A DNA stretch of 64,000 bases, from contig CM073590.1 of the NCBI GenBank assembly GCA_037074705.1, positions 95,286,947-95,350,946 of the forward strand. Direction: 5' to 3'. This DNA is from Zhengitettix transpicula (Eukaryota > Arthropoda > Insecta > Orthoptera > Tetrigidae). The notes under the pieces are model-generated. The model made no database searches, was not told the origin of the DNA, and saw only the letters and a list, made by a program, of their open reading frames with translations. Shown piece after piece: positions 2,097 to 62,706 of this stretch; positions within the stretch are counted from its first letter, which is position 1; the number at the start of each line of letters is the position of its first letter. The position numbers and the translations under genes were made by a program.

Positions 2097-3029
2097 TGTA
2101 GTAATTGGTAATTAAGACATTGTTCTAATTGGAAATTTGGATTGTAGAGGACTCATTATTAGTGGATATAGAGCGGACGCCGCAACAATCCGGCAAGGCA
2201 AAGAAAACATTGCTGAGAGAGTTTACGCGCTCAAAATCTACGAGACGAAGAGAACAGTCGGGCAGTAAGCAGCGAGGAGAAAAGACCAAAATCCCAAGGC
2301 ATAAAAATTTGAACAGTACAGTCGGTCAGCAGACAGCGAATAGAACGAACGAAAAGAACTCATTGAAAGTTTTACAGTCGGCAGTCAGAACGAAAGATTG
2401 TGGCCCAGTCACAAACATGCTTTCAGTTATTAAAAAGTAAAGCAATATTCAGACAAACCAATGAAGTCCATTGTCAACTAAAGCCACGAGATCTACAAAT
2501 CCAGGTTGCAGTAAAGCATCGAGAACCAACCAATTTGTGCTAAACCAACTAACAAACAACGCCAATTAGAGTCTGTGAGAACTTAGAATCAGTGATGTCC
2601 CCAAAATTGTGCACGAAAAACTAAAAATGAGACCTGGGCGGCCGTAAGTAGAGAAAACTTTAAAATAATTTGTAAACCGTGTTTAAAAGATAAAAGTCAG
2701 ATCGTTCTTTAATTATTTAATTATCGATAAAATGAGATCGTTAATTCTTGATAAAATTGAAATTGTTAAATTCAATCTTTAGTATTATTTCTTCCGCAAC
2801 AAATTTTGTCTATGTTCAGACGCTTTGATTTCCATATAAGGTAAATGTAATTTTGATTATTTAAATTCTGCCATTTATCAAACCCAGATCAAGACCCTGA
2901 GATCCTAAATATTTTGTGTAAAATATAATTGTTTTTAAAATTGATAATAAATTTTGTTAGTTGTTTAAAGTTAATAGTTGTTCATTTAAAAGCGCCCATC
3001 TATTATTATAAATATAGCTAATTATTACA
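2097..3029 (+). repeat. Solo LTR unit L2 with ATAT target duplication
   Basis: A 933 bp block opens with TGTAGTAATT and ends with ATTACA. ATAT directly flanks both sides. Its first ~150 bp and its right part (from 'agaatcagtgatgtcccc' near 2588) match L6 closely, while the middle does not. The marker 'caaacccagatcaagaccct' lies near 2880. No gag or pol coding sequence is attached. The 103-codon open frame inside it (2129-2440) is probably chance reading of U3. Confidence 0.8.
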
Positions 3030-3035
3030 ATATAT

Positions 3036-4089
3036 TGTAATGATTTACTATTTAAACCATTTAATTCAAACAAAGCTTAAAATGTGCCACACGTTGACGA
3101 CGCCAATTTGTAATGATTAATATAAGTAAACAATTTAAATCGTCACGTTGAAGTTTCAATTCGTAGTATTACTATTTTTACAGTGATTTAATTCAAACAA
3201 AGCCTCACGTTGAGGTTTCAATTTTGTAGTATTTACTTTAAACTGATACGATGTTTTAATTAAAAATAAATCAAGATTTAAAGTATACAAACAAATTAAT
3301 TTATTATAGCAAATACTGAAATTACATTATATATACTTGACAATATACCACGGCAATATCTCAGGGTCGACCACCGGGCCTTCAATAAAGAATAATTATA
3401 TTAAACAATTAAATTTACAAAGTTATTAAGGCGTTAATTTAAAAAATCATTAGAATATTACAATAATAGAAGATATGAGATATGAAATTTAAAATCTAAA
3501 ATCTGAACTCGGAAATTCTGACGATAAGATATCATTTACTGGAGGGTTTACAGAAAATAAGTTGTGCAGTTTTACCTTAAAGTTTTTTGTACCAACTAAT
3601 AGGCTCGTCCACACACACACGATTATTAACATTTCATATACAGGCCATTATACACTGAATTTAATGAGCAACACTTACTGCTTGCTGAGATTACATGCAA
3701 CACTTATTTCTCTGTTCTCTCTATCAAAATCTTACTACCATACTCAAAGTTTGGTTATTTGCTGGATTCAATAACAGCCTGGCTCCTAATAATTGAAGAA
3801 AATGTCTAACTCGTAACGTATGCTAGATTCCGGAATTTTGGATCAGGGAAAGAACAGTCGGCGTAGTAACGTTGCAGTTATTTGTTCATAGACCCCACCA
3901 TACACTCTGGAGCTCTGTACCCCCACAAACTGGAGCTCTGCGAATCTCGTAAAATGAATTTCGACAATACCCAGCAAGCAACGATAATCGCCACATATTA
4001 TTGTACACAACTCGAGTATTTAGGCCGCCAACAATCCAAGTCCAAAATTTTTTATTATTAATTAATTATATTTCCTTTCAATAACTACA
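3036..4089 (-). repeat. LTR unit L3 with three PBS/U5-tail modules
   Basis: Read on the minus strand, the LTR begins TGTAGTTATT (from 4089) and carries the 'ggcccggtggtcgaccctga' marker (about 3360-3382), a (GT)n run and a first U5 end at 3225. Three modules follow, each a PBS-like sequence plus an AT-rich tail: 'ttgaaacctcaacgtgaggc', 'ttgaaacttcaacgtgac' and 'ttggcgtcgtcaacgtgtgg'. The last two tails end in ATTACA, the final one at 3036. ATAT lies immediately outside both ends (3032-3035 and 4090-4093), so the modules belong to the inserted unit. L2 abuts it across the shared ATATAT. Confidence 0.8.
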
Positions 4090-8537: not shown

Positions 8538-9848
8538 TGTAATAAACAACAATAAGGCGTTAATTTATTTGCCCCACGTTGTGCGCCAAATGTAATAAAC
8601 AAATATTGAGCTTTAATTAATTTAATTTGCCCCACGTTGTGCGCCAAATGTAATAAACAAATATTGAGCTTTAATTAATTTAATTAAATTAATTTGCCCC
8701 ACGTTGTGGAAGCCAAAATGTAATAATTAAAAATTGAGCTTTATTTAATTTATATTTATATTTAATGAATTTATATCACGTGAAGCGCCATTTAGTTAAT
8801 AATTAAATGAAAGGCGTTAATTAAATGAAGTAATAATCAAAATTAACAAACAAAATATTTATTTATTTATTGGCAATAAAGATAATTACAACAAAATTTG
8901 AGATTTTTCTCTCTATCAGGGTCTCTACTGGGTTTGATAATGGTCAAAACAAACTGATTTAAAAATCTTATTAACAAAGCGTTCTCAATTTACCTAAATA
9001 ATATGTCGATAGAAAGAAATTTAAAAGTAAAGAAATTAACTCTGATTGACAATTAAAAGAGAACGAAATCTGATCTTATCCTCTAATTAGCGTTTACAAT
9101 TAATCATTAGTTTTGGTTTTGTTACTTACGTAGTGTCCAGCTGGTACCAGCATTCTTTTTGGTTTCGGAAGTACACTATGGAAAACTTTTAGACTGATTC
9201 TAAAATGTCGACTCACAGATTTTACACTATTAAAGCCAAAATTGATAGGCTCACAGAAACTCGGATGATCCTTCTGAATCTGATGTCTGCTCGCCTTACC
9301 GTAACCCTATGATTCGTAGATTTATTAGTGTCTTACTGAATTGGACGTAAACTGCAACGTATCTCCTTGACGATTTATTTTAACTGTTTATTCTTTCGGA
9401 GCGAACTAACTTTTCTCTAGCTCCTAGCTGTAGACTTAAACTGCTCTTACTTTTAAATTATTTACGCTGCAATACTTGCGGCATTAATGTTTTCTTCGTA
9501 TTAATTTACAACTTTAACTAGTTATACATTGACGATGTCTAGTCTCTGCTCAACTTATATTTCTTGTTCTGCTCCTCATAATGTCTTTCCGCCATCAGCT
9601 CCTAACAATCTTTCTCCGCTAATTAACAGTTATATTACTTGTTCTGCTCCTCACGATGTTTTTCCGCGAACTGACTCCTAGTTATCCCGAGTTTTAGTGC
9701 GCATACGCCATTTTTGACTTTTCGACAAAGCAAAGTGAGCTCGCTTCTCTCATTGTTGCTTTGTTCGATCAGACCGCTATAATGGATGGATTTCTCAAAC
9801 AAGTCAAATTTTATGTCCAAACAATTAATGGCCTAATTAATTGGCATT

Positions 9849-9851
<3 letters not shown>
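8538..9851 (-). repeat. LTR unit L5 with three PBS/U5-tail modules
   Basis: On the minus strand the LTR starts TGTAATGCCAATTAATTAGG at 9851 and its U5 ends ATTACA at 8719. Three PBS-tail modules follow (8648-8718, 8589-8647 and 8538-8588), each with a PBS-like segment ('ttggcgcacaacgtggggc' or 'ttggcttccacaacgtgggg') and an AT-rich tail ending in ATTACA. The module tail 'aaagctcaatatttgtttat' mirrors the LTR's own U5 end ('aaagctcaatttttaattat'). ATAT flanks both ends of the 1,314 bp unit. The sequence is close to L11. Confidence 0.85.
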
Positions 9852-19373: not shown

Positions 19374-20321
19374 TGTAGTAATTAGTAATTAATTCATTAT
19401 TATAATTAGAAAGTTGGATTGTAGAGGACTTATTAGTGGATAAAGCATACGCCGCAACGAGGCGGCGACACAAAGAAATAATGTATTGTTGGAGTTGAGA
19501 AAGCGGTACGCGCTCAAAATCTACGAGACGAACAGTCAGTCAGCGGCAAGACGCGAAAGGAAAAAATCTACGTCGAGAACTGGGACATAGCAGTTCGGTC
19601 CACATAGAGAAATAGAAACAGTAAAAGTTTGCGGATCCAGAATTATGAATAGGGCTATCTAGGAAGTCCAACGGCGAGCTAATAGTTTACATAAAACGCA
19701 AGTAACCAGTTTTGACGGAGAGACTTATAAAATCGCAGTTTGGAAGCAGAAGTTTTGCTTCACAAACTGAACAAATTTTCGCATAGAGAGACTTTGAGGA
19801 GACCTACGTCCGGAAACTGGCTGAGGGTGAGATGATCGAGGTTCCAGGATATCAGAGATCCAGAGTAACTACCGTGTGTTCAATTTCTAATGAGTAGAAT
19901 CAGTGATATCCCCAAATCGTGTGCACAGAAAAACCAAAAATGAGACCTGAGCGGCCGTAAGTAGAAAACTTTAAAATTGATTGTAAACCACTTTTAAAAG
20001 ATATGTCAGATCGGTCTTTAATTATTTCGTTCTTTAATTATTCACTTCGTTAATTATTTACTTCTTTAGTTCTTTAGTTCTTTAATTTAAATTCAATCTT
20101 TAGTCTTATTTTCGTCCGCAACAAATTTCGTCGATGTTCAGACGAATTAATTTACATAAAAAGCTAAATGTAATTGATTGTATAAAATTCACCCATTTAT
20201 CAAACCCAGATAAAGACCCTGAGATCCCAAATATTATTGTATTTTAAAATTGTTAATAAATGATGTGTTAATTGTTTCACTTAATAATCTTTTTATTTTA
20301 TTTAAACGCCTTTTTATTACA
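19374..20321 (+). repeat. LTR unit L6, mosaic of two LTR families
   Basis: A 948 bp block, TGTAGTAATT...TTATTACA, with ATAT on both sides. The first ~170 bp and the part from 'agaatcagtgatatcccc' (near 19900) match L2. The ~345 bp between them (19560-19905) instead matches L10 (44098-44440), including 'agggctatctaggaagtcca' and 'gcagaagttttgcttcacaa'. The marker 'caaacccagataaagaccct' is near 20200. There is no coding region. Confidence 0.85.
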
Positions 20322-43917: not shown

Positions 43918-43920
<3 letters not shown>

Positions 43921-45026
43921 AATACCAATTAAACAGGCCATTAATTGTTTTGAATATAATTTAATTCTTGGCGGTACGGGTGCTTAAAGACGACAATCGC
44001 AGCGGATCTTTCTTTGTTAACAATGGAGACTGGAGACCGCGCGCTTACAGAACTCAGTCTACGGAGAGACGCGAAACGAAAAAGTCTGCGTGGAGTCTGC
44101 GTCGAGAACTGGGACATGGCAGTTCGGTCCATGTAGAGAAATAAAAACAGTAAAAGTCTGCGGATCTATAATTATGAATAGGGCTATCTAGGAAGTCCAA
44201 CGGCGAGATATAATAGTTTTCATAAAACGCAAGTAAAGAATTTTGACGGAGAGACCTATAAAATCGCAATTTAGAAGCAGAAGTTTTGCTTCACAAACTG
44301 AACTAATTTTCACATAGAGAGACTTCAAGGAGATCTAAGTCCGAGGGCTGACAGTGGGGCGGCTAATCCAGGTTCCAAGATATCAGAGATCCAGAGGAAC
44401 AACCGTGTGTTCAAAATCTAATGAATAGAATCAGTGTATAATGGCCTGTTTAGTGGGTGTTGACTTCAAGATACAATACTCTGAACTGGTACCAGAAGCA
44501 CTGTCGTGAGTACAAAACAATTTTAATGACTGTAAACGATAATTAAAGGGTATAGTCAGATTTCGTTCGCGTTTTTCTTTTCATTCGTTTTCTTTTACTT
44601 TTGTTTTTAATATTGTATTCCGTTAACTTCAATGAGTTTGGATTGTTAATGTTTTAGTTCATTGTATTGGTTCTTCCTATCAAACCCAGTGGTGACCCTG
44701 AGATAAAGAGAAATTCGACGTGGTTTATTGTAAAAATATAAAGCTGTATTTTCATAGAACGCCACGAATTAATAAAATAAAATTGAAATATTTGTTTGTT
44801 AAATTGACGGAATTCGGCGTGCAAAGCAGGGCTTATAATGTGTAATTATCAACATAAATTTTTAAATACATAAATTGGCGTCTTCAACGTGTGGCTAACT
44901 ATCATTCAAATTTTAATAATTTTTTTAATTATTTCTATTAATTAAGACCACCATTTTAATCATTACATAAATGGCTTCTTAACCGTGGGGCAAATTTAAT
45001 TCATCCCCGTTTTTTTAATCATTACA
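43918..45026 (+). repeat. LTR unit L10 with two PBS/U5-tail modules
   Basis: Starts TGTAATACCAATTAAACAGG, like L5 and L11, and carries the ~345 bp block shared with L6 (44098-44440). The marker 'caaacccagtggtgaccctg' is at about 44680. Two modules follow U5: 'attggcgtcttcaacgtgtg' with a tail ending CATTACA, then 'atggcttcttaaccgtgggg' with a tail ending ATTACA at 45026. ATAT flanks both ends of the 1,109 bp unit. (AT)n continues at 45027-45045. There is no coding region. Confidence 0.85.
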
Positions 45027-58172: not shown

Positions 58173-59006
58173 TGTAATGCCAATTAATTAGGCCATTAAT
58201 TGGTTTTAATAAAATTTAATTGTAGCGTCAGGAGCTTCCAAAGCGACAATGGAGTCGAGCTCTGTTGCTTTGTCGGAAAGTTAAAAATGGCGTATGCGCG
58301 CTAAAACTCGAGGGCACTAAGAGTTAGTTGGTGGCGGGACATTACAGAGGACGGAACGAATAATACTAGAGCAGAGACTAGCCATCGTTAATGTATCATT
58401 AAACAAAGTTGTGAATTTAAGACAAAGTAAAAACATTCACGGAAGTATTACCCCGTAAATATCGCTAAGTTAGCAGTTTTTACGTCTATCAGCAGCCAGG
58501 AAAGGAGTGCAGTTTTACGTCTGTAGCCAGCTAGGAAAGGAAGTCAGTTTAAGTCCAAAGCAGTAAAAGACTAACAAATCTACGAATCATAGGATTCGTA
58601 TAAGGCAAGCAGATATCAGATAGCTGACAAAAAAAAGGATCATCCGAGTTCCTGGGAGCCTATCAATTTTGACTTCAATAGTGTAAAATCTGTGAATCTT
58701 AGAATTTTGTTAATTTCTTTTCTTTTTAATTTATTTCTATCGACGTATTGTTTAGGTAAATGTGAACTGTTTGTTAATAAGATTTTAAAATCAATTTGTT
58801 GTGTCTATTATCAAACCCAGTGAAGGCCCTGAGAAATTAATATTTTAAATTGTAATTGTTTTTGAGTTATTGCCACAAAATAAATAAATAATTTTGTTTT
58901 AAATTCTTGTTGATTATTTCATTTAATTAATTCCTTTATTAATTAATACAAATTGGCTTCCACGACGTGGGGCAAATTAAAGGCTTTCTATTATGAATTA
59001 TTTACA
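58173..59006 (+). repeat. LTR unit L11 with one PBS/U5-tail module and AAAT target duplication
   Basis: Starts TGTAATGCCAATTAATTAGG (same as L5), with the marker 'caaacccagtgaaggccctg' near 58810. U5 ends AATACA at 58950, followed by 'aattggcttccacgacgtgg' and an AT-rich tail ending TTTACA at 59006. AAAT occurs directly outside both ends (58169-58172 and 59007-59010), so the PBS module is inside the insertion. There is no coding region. Confidence 0.85.
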
Positions 59007-62488: not shown

Positions 62489-62706
62489 CCAGAGGCATTA
62501 TATACGGGCCTTCCTGAATGCAACACGCAACACATATTATATTGTTTGCTTTTATTCTTCCCATTACTAGACGCATGAGAAGTCTGCAACTTTTGGTCCA
62601 GAGGCATTATATACGGGCCTTCCTGAATGCAACACGCAACACATATTATATTGTTTGCTTTTATTCTTCCCATTACTAGACGCATGAGAAGTCTGCAACT
62701 TTTGGT
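62489..62706. repeat. Exact 109 bp tandem duplication
   Basis: Copies at 62489-62597 and 62598-62706 are identical over 109 bases ('ccagaggcattatatacggg' to 'cagtctgcaacttttggt'-like end). The unit length is not a multiple of three, so the 137-codon minus frame crossing it (62449-62862) reads it in two phases and is not a gene. Confidence 0.95.

Follow-up and report, generated by a model that had tools for sequence, protein, structure and literature searches.

Ladders of primer-binding sites within the long terminal repeats of a Ty3/gypsy-type group in Zhengitettix transpicula

The window analysed here, a 64,000-nucleotide stretch of the Zhengitettix transpicula genome (GenBank assembly GCA_037074705.1, contig CM073590.1, positions 95,286,947 to 95,350,946 of the forward strand), contains a solo long terminal repeat (LTR) that we call L5. 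The right end of L5 is built from four tandem units, each consisting of a few linker bases, a primer-binding-site (PBS)-like text that begins at TGG, and a tail with an LTR-like TTACA end. Comparison of L5 with its relatives in the host genome firmly demonstrates a natural ladder of primer sites within LTRs. The rungs are parts of the LTR, they occur in both LTRs of single insertions, their number is variable, and the LTR terminus moves among them. Each rung is a complete junction between an LTR end and a PBS, running from ATTACA through a linker of 2-4 nt and the TGG of the PBS to a short copy of the U5 end. The features of L5 are as follows.

9851 to 8538, minus strand: L5 solo LTR, 1314 nt; begins TGTAATGCC, ends TTTATTACA, with ATAT flanking both ends
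8719..8794, minus strand: L5 unit 1 (oldest); TAAATGGCGCTTCACGTGATAT plus a tail ending ATTACA
8649..8718, minus strand: L5 unit 2; TTTTGGCTTCCACAACGTGGGGC (8696-8718) plus a tail
8591..8648, minus strand: L5 unit 3; TTTGGCGCACAACGTGGGGC plus a tail; its PBS at 8629-8646 is a 17/18 match to TGGCGCCCAACGTGGGGC
8538..8590, minus strand: L5 unit 4 (outermost); TTTGGCGCACAACGTGGGGC (PBS at 8571-8588) followed by a tail of a different type and by ATAT

L5 is a solo LTR, with TG...CA ends and a short direct target duplication. The ATAT duplication is weak evidence by itself because both ATATs stand within AT repeats. The original prediction described three modules after position 8719, each composed of a PBS-like sequence and a copy of the U5 end, with the ATAT duplication outside the last of them. 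The tandem modules are real and the array is larger than was first seen: the three modules are present, and an older unit at 8794-8719 had gone uncounted, which brings the total to four. ATAT does lie outside the last module, and it flanks both ends of the LTR. The modules do not all share one U5 tail as had been supposed, since the outermost tail, AACGCCTTATTGTTGTTTATTACA, differs in type from the tails of units 2 and 3. Unit 1 contains the PBS-like text TGGCGCTTCACGTGATAT at 8773-8790 and a U5-type tail, and the older LTR end is at 8795. Tandem Repeats Finder (TRF) reported a 58-bp period in the array with 98% matches. When up to three mismatches were allowed, TGGCGCNCAACGTGGGGC gave two matches in the window and none in 100 dinucleotide shuffles; a chance origin of the PBS text in L5 was rejected on the absence of shuffled matches.

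The PBS text was compared with host transfer RNA (tRNA) 3′ ends, as had been suggested with the original prediction, and it matches tRNA-Lys. The core, TGGCGCCCAACGTGGGGC, is the complement of 3′ ends of host tRNA-Lys, and the matching 3′ end, GGTTCRAGCCCCACGTTGGGCG, occurs at 27 genomic sites (sites ending GTTGGGCG). The exact complement of TGGCGCCCAACGTGGGGC assumes a standard 73-nt tRNA ending in G73, plus CCA. ARAGORN identified tRNA-Lys genes in all four loci scanned, which come from two tandem arrays; in its models most genes that end in that text are longer by one base, and GGGCT terminates some array members instead. The arrays consist of tRNA-Lys(CTT/TTT)-like genes (L123-L126) and lie at G000:C2:152855333-152858311 and C1:45100846-45101605. 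The period of the C2 array is about 148 bp, and 3′ ends are altered in some members of the arrays. TGGCGCCCAACGTGGGGC is listed as a tRNA-Lys1,2 PBS (PMC1084362), and its first 17 nt constitute the PBS of human foamy virus (PMC3386198). A half-tRNA primer, presumed to be the anticodon arm of tRNA-His, had been considered for CCACAACGTGGGG and was dropped, as genomic tRNA-Lys 3′ ends fit the 18-mer. By this pairing with a host tRNA 3′ end and its CCA, elements that carry TGGCGCCCAACGTGGGGC classify as tRNA-primed.

The exact 18-mer followed by AAAT, which is its context within units, occurs 289 times in the genome, with no occurrence of the reversed control; the 18-mer preceding the leader occurs 29 times. 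Five single sites in the unit context were read (L130-L134), and four of them are LTR ends with ATAT behind, L132 being unclear. The other unit-context sites that were read are the ladders L127 and L129 and those in L057 and L079. Three of the leader-context copies, at G000:C1:93052233, 93057279 and 93062325, are spaced exactly 5046 bp apart and are probably tandem elements. Two pattern scans were made of viral contigs; one returned four loci, in none of which an LTR end preceded the motif, and the other returned none.

To compare right ends across the family, the host assembly (993.6 Mb) was searched with L5. The best 40 of 7377 first-look candidates were scored (41 matches were listed, one of them a 57-nt piece), and 39 loci beyond L5 itself were retrieved and their right ends inspected. 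Units were counted by hand in 37 of the 40 copies, L029, L050 and L051 being left out because their right ends are truncated. Nine copies have no unit, 17 have one, eight have two, two have three, and L5 alone has four. The 37 include copies with a worn or AT-repeat-fused extreme end (L013, L023, L028 and L042) and one whose single unit is degenerate (L034). LTR length increases in steps over this range of 0-4 units, as the original prediction had anticipated. LTRs without a unit measure 1056-1063 nt (five of the nine copies, with ends found by script), those with one unit 1122-1139 nt (eight of the 11 measured, out of 17 copies), those with two units 1181-1205 nt (six of eight), those with three 1248 and 1266 nt, and L5, with four, 1314 nt. 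The outliers among the one-unit LTRs are L020, L022 (a deleted full element) and L033, which carries a foreign insert inside its unit tail; this insert has its own inverted repeat (CTGGATGAAGTTCTCTCGG / CCGAGAGAACTTCATCCAG). A script found an identical 4-mer, always ATAT, directly outside both ends in 25 of the 40 copies, although for L020 this rests on an end later than its own; L027 has GTAT on both sides by eye. Such a flanking 4-mer is weak evidence for any one copy, as the sites are AT-rich.

Full elements were sought with a 170-amino-acid RNase H piece, for which the best 150 of 920 candidates were scored, and a leader query, with the best 40 of 365 candidates scored, provided 39 further 5′ regions. 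The RNase H piece matches PF17917 and PF17919, and its best match among solved structures is the Ty3 reverse transcriptase/RNase H 4ol8; on the basis of this Ty3-type RNase H, the group is assigned to the Ty3/gypsy type (Metaviridae). The open frames at the RNase H site are 1128 amino acids in elements E1-E4 and 1084 in E5. The open reading frame list for L098 contained no plus-strand frame of at least 120 amino acids; this does not decide the matter of an integrase downstream of the RNase H. The group is abundant and in part very young. Presumably it resembles the Osvaldo/Ulysses-like clade in its long LTR, tRNA-Lys PBS and 4-bp duplication.

Both LTR right ends were read in five elements, E1-E5, and left ends in E2 and E5. 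These elements belong to LTR families related to L5 within the same group; no full element with the four-unit LTR of L5 was encountered, and no search was aimed at one. In each of E1-E4 one identical unit is present in both LTRs, and the LTR pairs are 99.2-100% identical over 264-1014 nt. The functional PBS and the leader follow the unit of the 5′ LTR, and ATAT follows the unit of the 3′ LTR. The LTRs of E2, which are 99.8% identical over 1014 nt, both end GGTTTATTACA-ATTTGGCTACCACAACGGTGGACGGAGATAGGAGTAATAGATGGTTATTACA; the 5′ LTR is followed by TTTTGGCGCAACAACGTGTGGCACG and the leader, the 3′ LTR by ATATATAT, and the 5′ flank is also ATAT. The layout of E2 recurs in E3 (99.8% over 414 nt) and in E4 (100% over 287 nt), and E1 has in both LTRs (99.2% over 264 nt) a single unit unlike that of E2. 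The 853-nt LTRs of E5 are 99.9% identical and contain no unit in either copy; their flanks are TTAT and ATAT. Because the same unit is found in both LTRs of E1-E4, the units existed before integration. Thus, the suggested comparison of 5′ LTR, 3′ LTR and functional PBS gave matching units in E1-E4 and matching absence in E5, and the modules belong to the inserted LTR as proposed, instead of both LTRs ending before them.

Several other elements were less complete. L055, an internally deleted sixth element, carries the same pair of units at each end, neither end being a whole LTR; the unit has the exact PBS in the 5′ LTR but a variant of it in the 3′ LTR, and the tails differ at few positions only. 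L057 (two units at the 5′ LTR and a 3′ LTR cut down to one) and L022 (one unit versus none, with different U5 types) are not clean pairs. Among the 5′ LTRs of further elements, E6, E7, E8 and E11 contain no unit and E12 contains one, the 3′ LTR end lying outside the pieces. E6-E12 were excluded from the LTR pairs, and the 5′ pieces of E9 and E10 do not include an LTR end. No 3′ LTR was present in the L091 and L092 stretches, and in L064 AT repeats replace U5 in the 3′ LTR.

These pairs bear on two other origins of the units. One is a separate satellite inserted beside or into LTRs, to which we assign virtually no probability. Nothing beyond the tandem look of the array speaks for it, the unit tails end like the LTR, and for L5-type units it is refuted by units that are enclosed by the target duplications of solo LTRs and that full elements carry in both of their LTRs; the L5 array itself is bounded by the target duplication of the LTR. 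The other, which is very improbable, is that the units are deletion scars, made when recombination or a template jump connects sequence lying behind the PBS to U5 in the 3′ LTR, with repeated events stacking the tails. Junctions of this kind do exist: gag is joined to a PBS tail in L052, pol to a unit in L057, and the leader to unit tails in L129. The gag sequence TTTCAAYGTGGG of L052 resembles the PBS, and the junctions of L052 and L129 are reminiscent of polymerase jumps at PBS-like text. However, E1-E4 have the same unit in both LTRs together with open pol frames, which refutes scars as the general cause, and by eye the first unit is of the same type in 24 of the 28 unit-bearing copies of the L5 family. 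Deletion scars may have made the first unit in some lineages.

The position of the LTR boundary was examined by comparing terminal ends, taken as the last 26 nt before ATAT or GTAT, with internal ends, taken before PBS-like text. Between 26 distinct terminal and 31 internal ends, ten terminal/internal pairs match within two mismatches. The end TTAAAGCTCAATTGTTGTTTATTACA closes L024 and L030 but lies inside L018, where TATTTGGCTTCC follows it. The terminal ends of L047 and L5 agree within one mismatch with internal ends of L044 and L015, respectively. Because an end that closes some copies lies inside others, the LTR boundary must have shifted.

In the loci sampled, 87 PBS-like texts (functional PBSs among them) immediately follow an LTR-end hexamer; they come from 59 loci, and the linkers, for which 0-4 nt was permitted, measure 2-4 nt. 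The exact 18-mer accounts for 26 of the 87, many of them from one ladder. The stretch between TGG and CAACG varies much among these texts, and the CAACGTGGGGC part recurs in divergent LTRs. This recurrence would be expected if PBS-like text in U5 had a conserved role, for instance in an RNA fold or in a second contact with the tRNA (primer activation or a bipartite PBS), the repeats being incidental, and bipartite PBSs are described for Ty1 and Ty3 (PMC5371799). Against a kept function stand the variability from TGG to CAACG and the existence of recent LTRs without units, namely those of E5 and nine of the 40 copies in the L5 family. We therefore consider this explanation improbable.

A tree of the U3-R core was built from 38 copies (L047 and L051 were omitted, as the anchor was not found). 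The tree is star-like, with end branches of about 0.028, inner branches of 0-0.005 and good support for two of 35 inner branches. Unit classes required 18 changes on the tree versus 18.9 when shuffled, a value as low being reached in 74 of 200 shuffles; there was no clear signal for unit number in this tree of upstream LTR cores. Because the tree is star-like and unit number shows little clustering on it, unit number changed or was reshuffled largely within one burst, during which the core barely changed.

Some arrays are far longer than that of L5. L127 (C1:244026250-244027650) contains 15.9 units of 52 bp with 96% matches (TRF), the exact PBS followed by AAAT in 12 units and, by eye, inverted U5 copies on both sides. 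In L129 a PBS and the beginning of the leader are followed immediately by at least 12 units. Five units precede ATATATAT in L131, two are present in L130, and L133 and L134 have one each. A single 52-nt unit distinguishes L079 from L090, and L079 has the exact 18-mer as its second PBS.

The main rival explanation is DNA slippage or unequal exchange, by which an existing array of PBS and U5-tail units would change in the chromosome like a minisatellite and reverse transcription would merely copy it. The 58-bp units of L5 at 98% matches, the dimers that recur inside the 16-unit ladder L127 and AT-rich tails with many short repeats are consistent with such a process. However, slippage alone does not make both LTRs alike, and priming at the outermost PBS would still be required. 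In addition, the scatter of unit number on the star-like tree argues for much change within a transposition burst, and exact 18-mer copies of inner PBSs stand beside variant ones in L079, L057 and L055. We regard slippage as unlikely to be the general explanation, and it probably contributes in the long ladders.

Our preferred explanation, to which we give a probability of roughly 0.6, is that the U5 end of this group is a ladder of PBSs to which outermost-PBS priming and duplication by a register shift add rungs. Minus-strand synthesis would start at the outermost PBS, and everything upstream of it, old PBS copies included, would be copied into both LTRs as U5. Duplication of a U5 tail and PBS would then make both LTRs one rung longer in the following cycle; if synthesis were primed at an inner PBS, the LTRs would become shorter. 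We favour reverse transcription as the time of duplication, most likely at the second strand transfer. Plus-strand strong-stop DNA, ending in the PBS, would meet a minus strand that had run past the PBS into U5 and would pair with it one rung out of register. This register shift predicts an exact tRNA copy amid a new pair of identical tails, as seen in L079. The stepwise lengthening mechanism as a whole is likely, and we infer it from the genomic copies. The original prediction that priming at a downstream PBS lengthens the LTR agrees with the step lengths and with ends that are terminal in some copies and internal in others; the priming event itself and the origin of the second PBS go beyond what these comparisons show.

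Palindromic 5′ ends provide a further indication of the strand that the register shift would use. In a strict test, U5 palindromes of the form rc(U5)-loop-U5-PBS (rc, reverse complement) were found at three of 37 5′ ends (L061, L068 and L085) and at none of 37 solo LTRs. By eye, similar ends were recognized in L052, L055, L070, L078 and L127. An earlier inverted-repeat test, which was blind to self-symmetric palindromes, had identified two of 39 (L052 and L061), with one of 40 in the control (L042). The palindromic ends replace the normal U3-R-U5 and start at or close to TGTAAT; some of them adjoin an AT-rich flank. They appear to be snap-back products that apparently became integrated, which suggests that the minus strand continues beyond the PBS into U5 and is able to fold back. 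A free U5 end of this kind is what the register-shift model needs.

Several observations weigh against this explanation. The 98% matched 58-bp pair in L5 is also expected from slippage or unequal exchange, and either process would equally produce the units that partly recur as dimers in L127. The class with two units is by itself slightly clustered on the tree (6 changes versus 7.5 when shuffled, as low in 52 of 500), and the 40 copies are the top-scoring rather than a random sample of the 7377 candidates. No clean LTR pair with unequal unit numbers was present among the pairs read. The unit of E2, E3, E4 and E12 is common by descent, not the product of independent gains, and its PBS text is degenerate. 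In the young elements E1-E8, E11 and E12 (L099-L121) the functional PBS, TGGCGCA[AT]CAACGTGTGGC, is not an exact complement of tRNA-Lys. It had no match to a T-loop-anchored tRNA pattern in the host genome, and a looser tRNA-like pattern gave 26 candidate sites. Retention of such a PBS in young elements fits the behaviour of Ty3, because the Ty3 PBS is reportedly not preserved by copying of the tRNA (PMC5371799).

A broader form of the preferred explanation is held more tentatively, at somewhat less than even odds. The LTR boundary would slide, with rungs that could be added or dropped in each cycle by out-of-register transfer and PBS choice; LTR length would evolve in quanta in the course of transposition itself, and ladders could become minisatellites of tRNA-complementary units.

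The window contains other LTRs, in which units were called by reading.

3036..4089, minus strand: L0, an LTR from a related family; its three PBS-like units lie at 3202-3221, 3141-3159 and 3086-3106; ATAT on both sides
43918..45026, plus strand: L44, LTR with two PBS-like units (44875-44895 and 44971-44991); ATAT on both sides
58173..59006, plus strand: L58, LTR with one inner unit (PBS-like text at 58953-58973); AAAT on both sides, outside AT repeats
2097..3029, plus strand: L1, a related LTR that lacks units; flanked by ATAT at both ends
19374..20321, plus strand: L2, a related LTR that lacks units; flanked by ATAT at both ends

L58 is 79% identical to L5 over the best stretch. The duplicated target is ATAT, often inside AT repeats, in L0, L1, L2, L5 and L44 as well as in the 25 family copies mentioned above. 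A perfect 109-bp tandem duplication (TRF, 100% matches) occupies 62489-62706, and ARAGORN detected no tRNA in the window.

In textbook models a single PBS fixes the LTR end. Retroviral vectors carrying two PBSs are said, from the title of a 2004 report by Voronin and Pathak (J Virol 78:5402), to show frequent dual initiation; these likewise have two PBSs on one RNA, but they are engineered, whereas the ladders described here are natural and inherited inside LTRs. The group shares with Ty3/gypsy elements (Metaviridae) its TG..CA LTRs, 4-bp target duplication, PBS behind the 5′ LTR, Ty3-type RNase H and a purine-rich AATTTGGGGCG that precedes the 3′ LTR in E2 and E5. It differs in a U5 with anywhere from no to many PBS and U5-tail units and in an LTR length that is stepped within one burst. 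In Ty3, plus-strand strong-stop DNA pairs with R-U5 at the 3′ end of the minus strand (PMC5371799). Such pairing, together with a PBS that is not preserved from the tRNA, would allow register shifts and variant PBSs to persist; no PBS repeats are mentioned for the yeast elements Ty1 and Ty3 in the part of that source available (PMC5371799). Sireviruses with multiple polypurine tracts (PMC2829016) provide another natural multiplication of a reverse-transcription start signal near the LTR, but the signal is that of the plus strand, it lies in the internal region, and the LTR boundary is unmoved. Complex insertions in Triticeae (PMC1950507) likewise attribute odd LTR elements to abnormal template switching, but they are fusions of two parent elements and not stepwise growth of U5. 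In the literature on repeated PBSs and LTR growth, among the best-ranked papers (few subscription titles among them), we found no description of PBS ladders in LTRs.

With PBS-LTR junctions in series, present in both LTRs, and copies that end at different rungs, errors of strand transfer would become directly readable from genomic copies. The ladder offers a route for LTR lengthening and a source of satellite-like arrays, and it calls for caution where annotation of LTRs presupposes a lone PBS immediately beyond the LTR end. The second strand transfer of gypsy elements also becomes open to testing.
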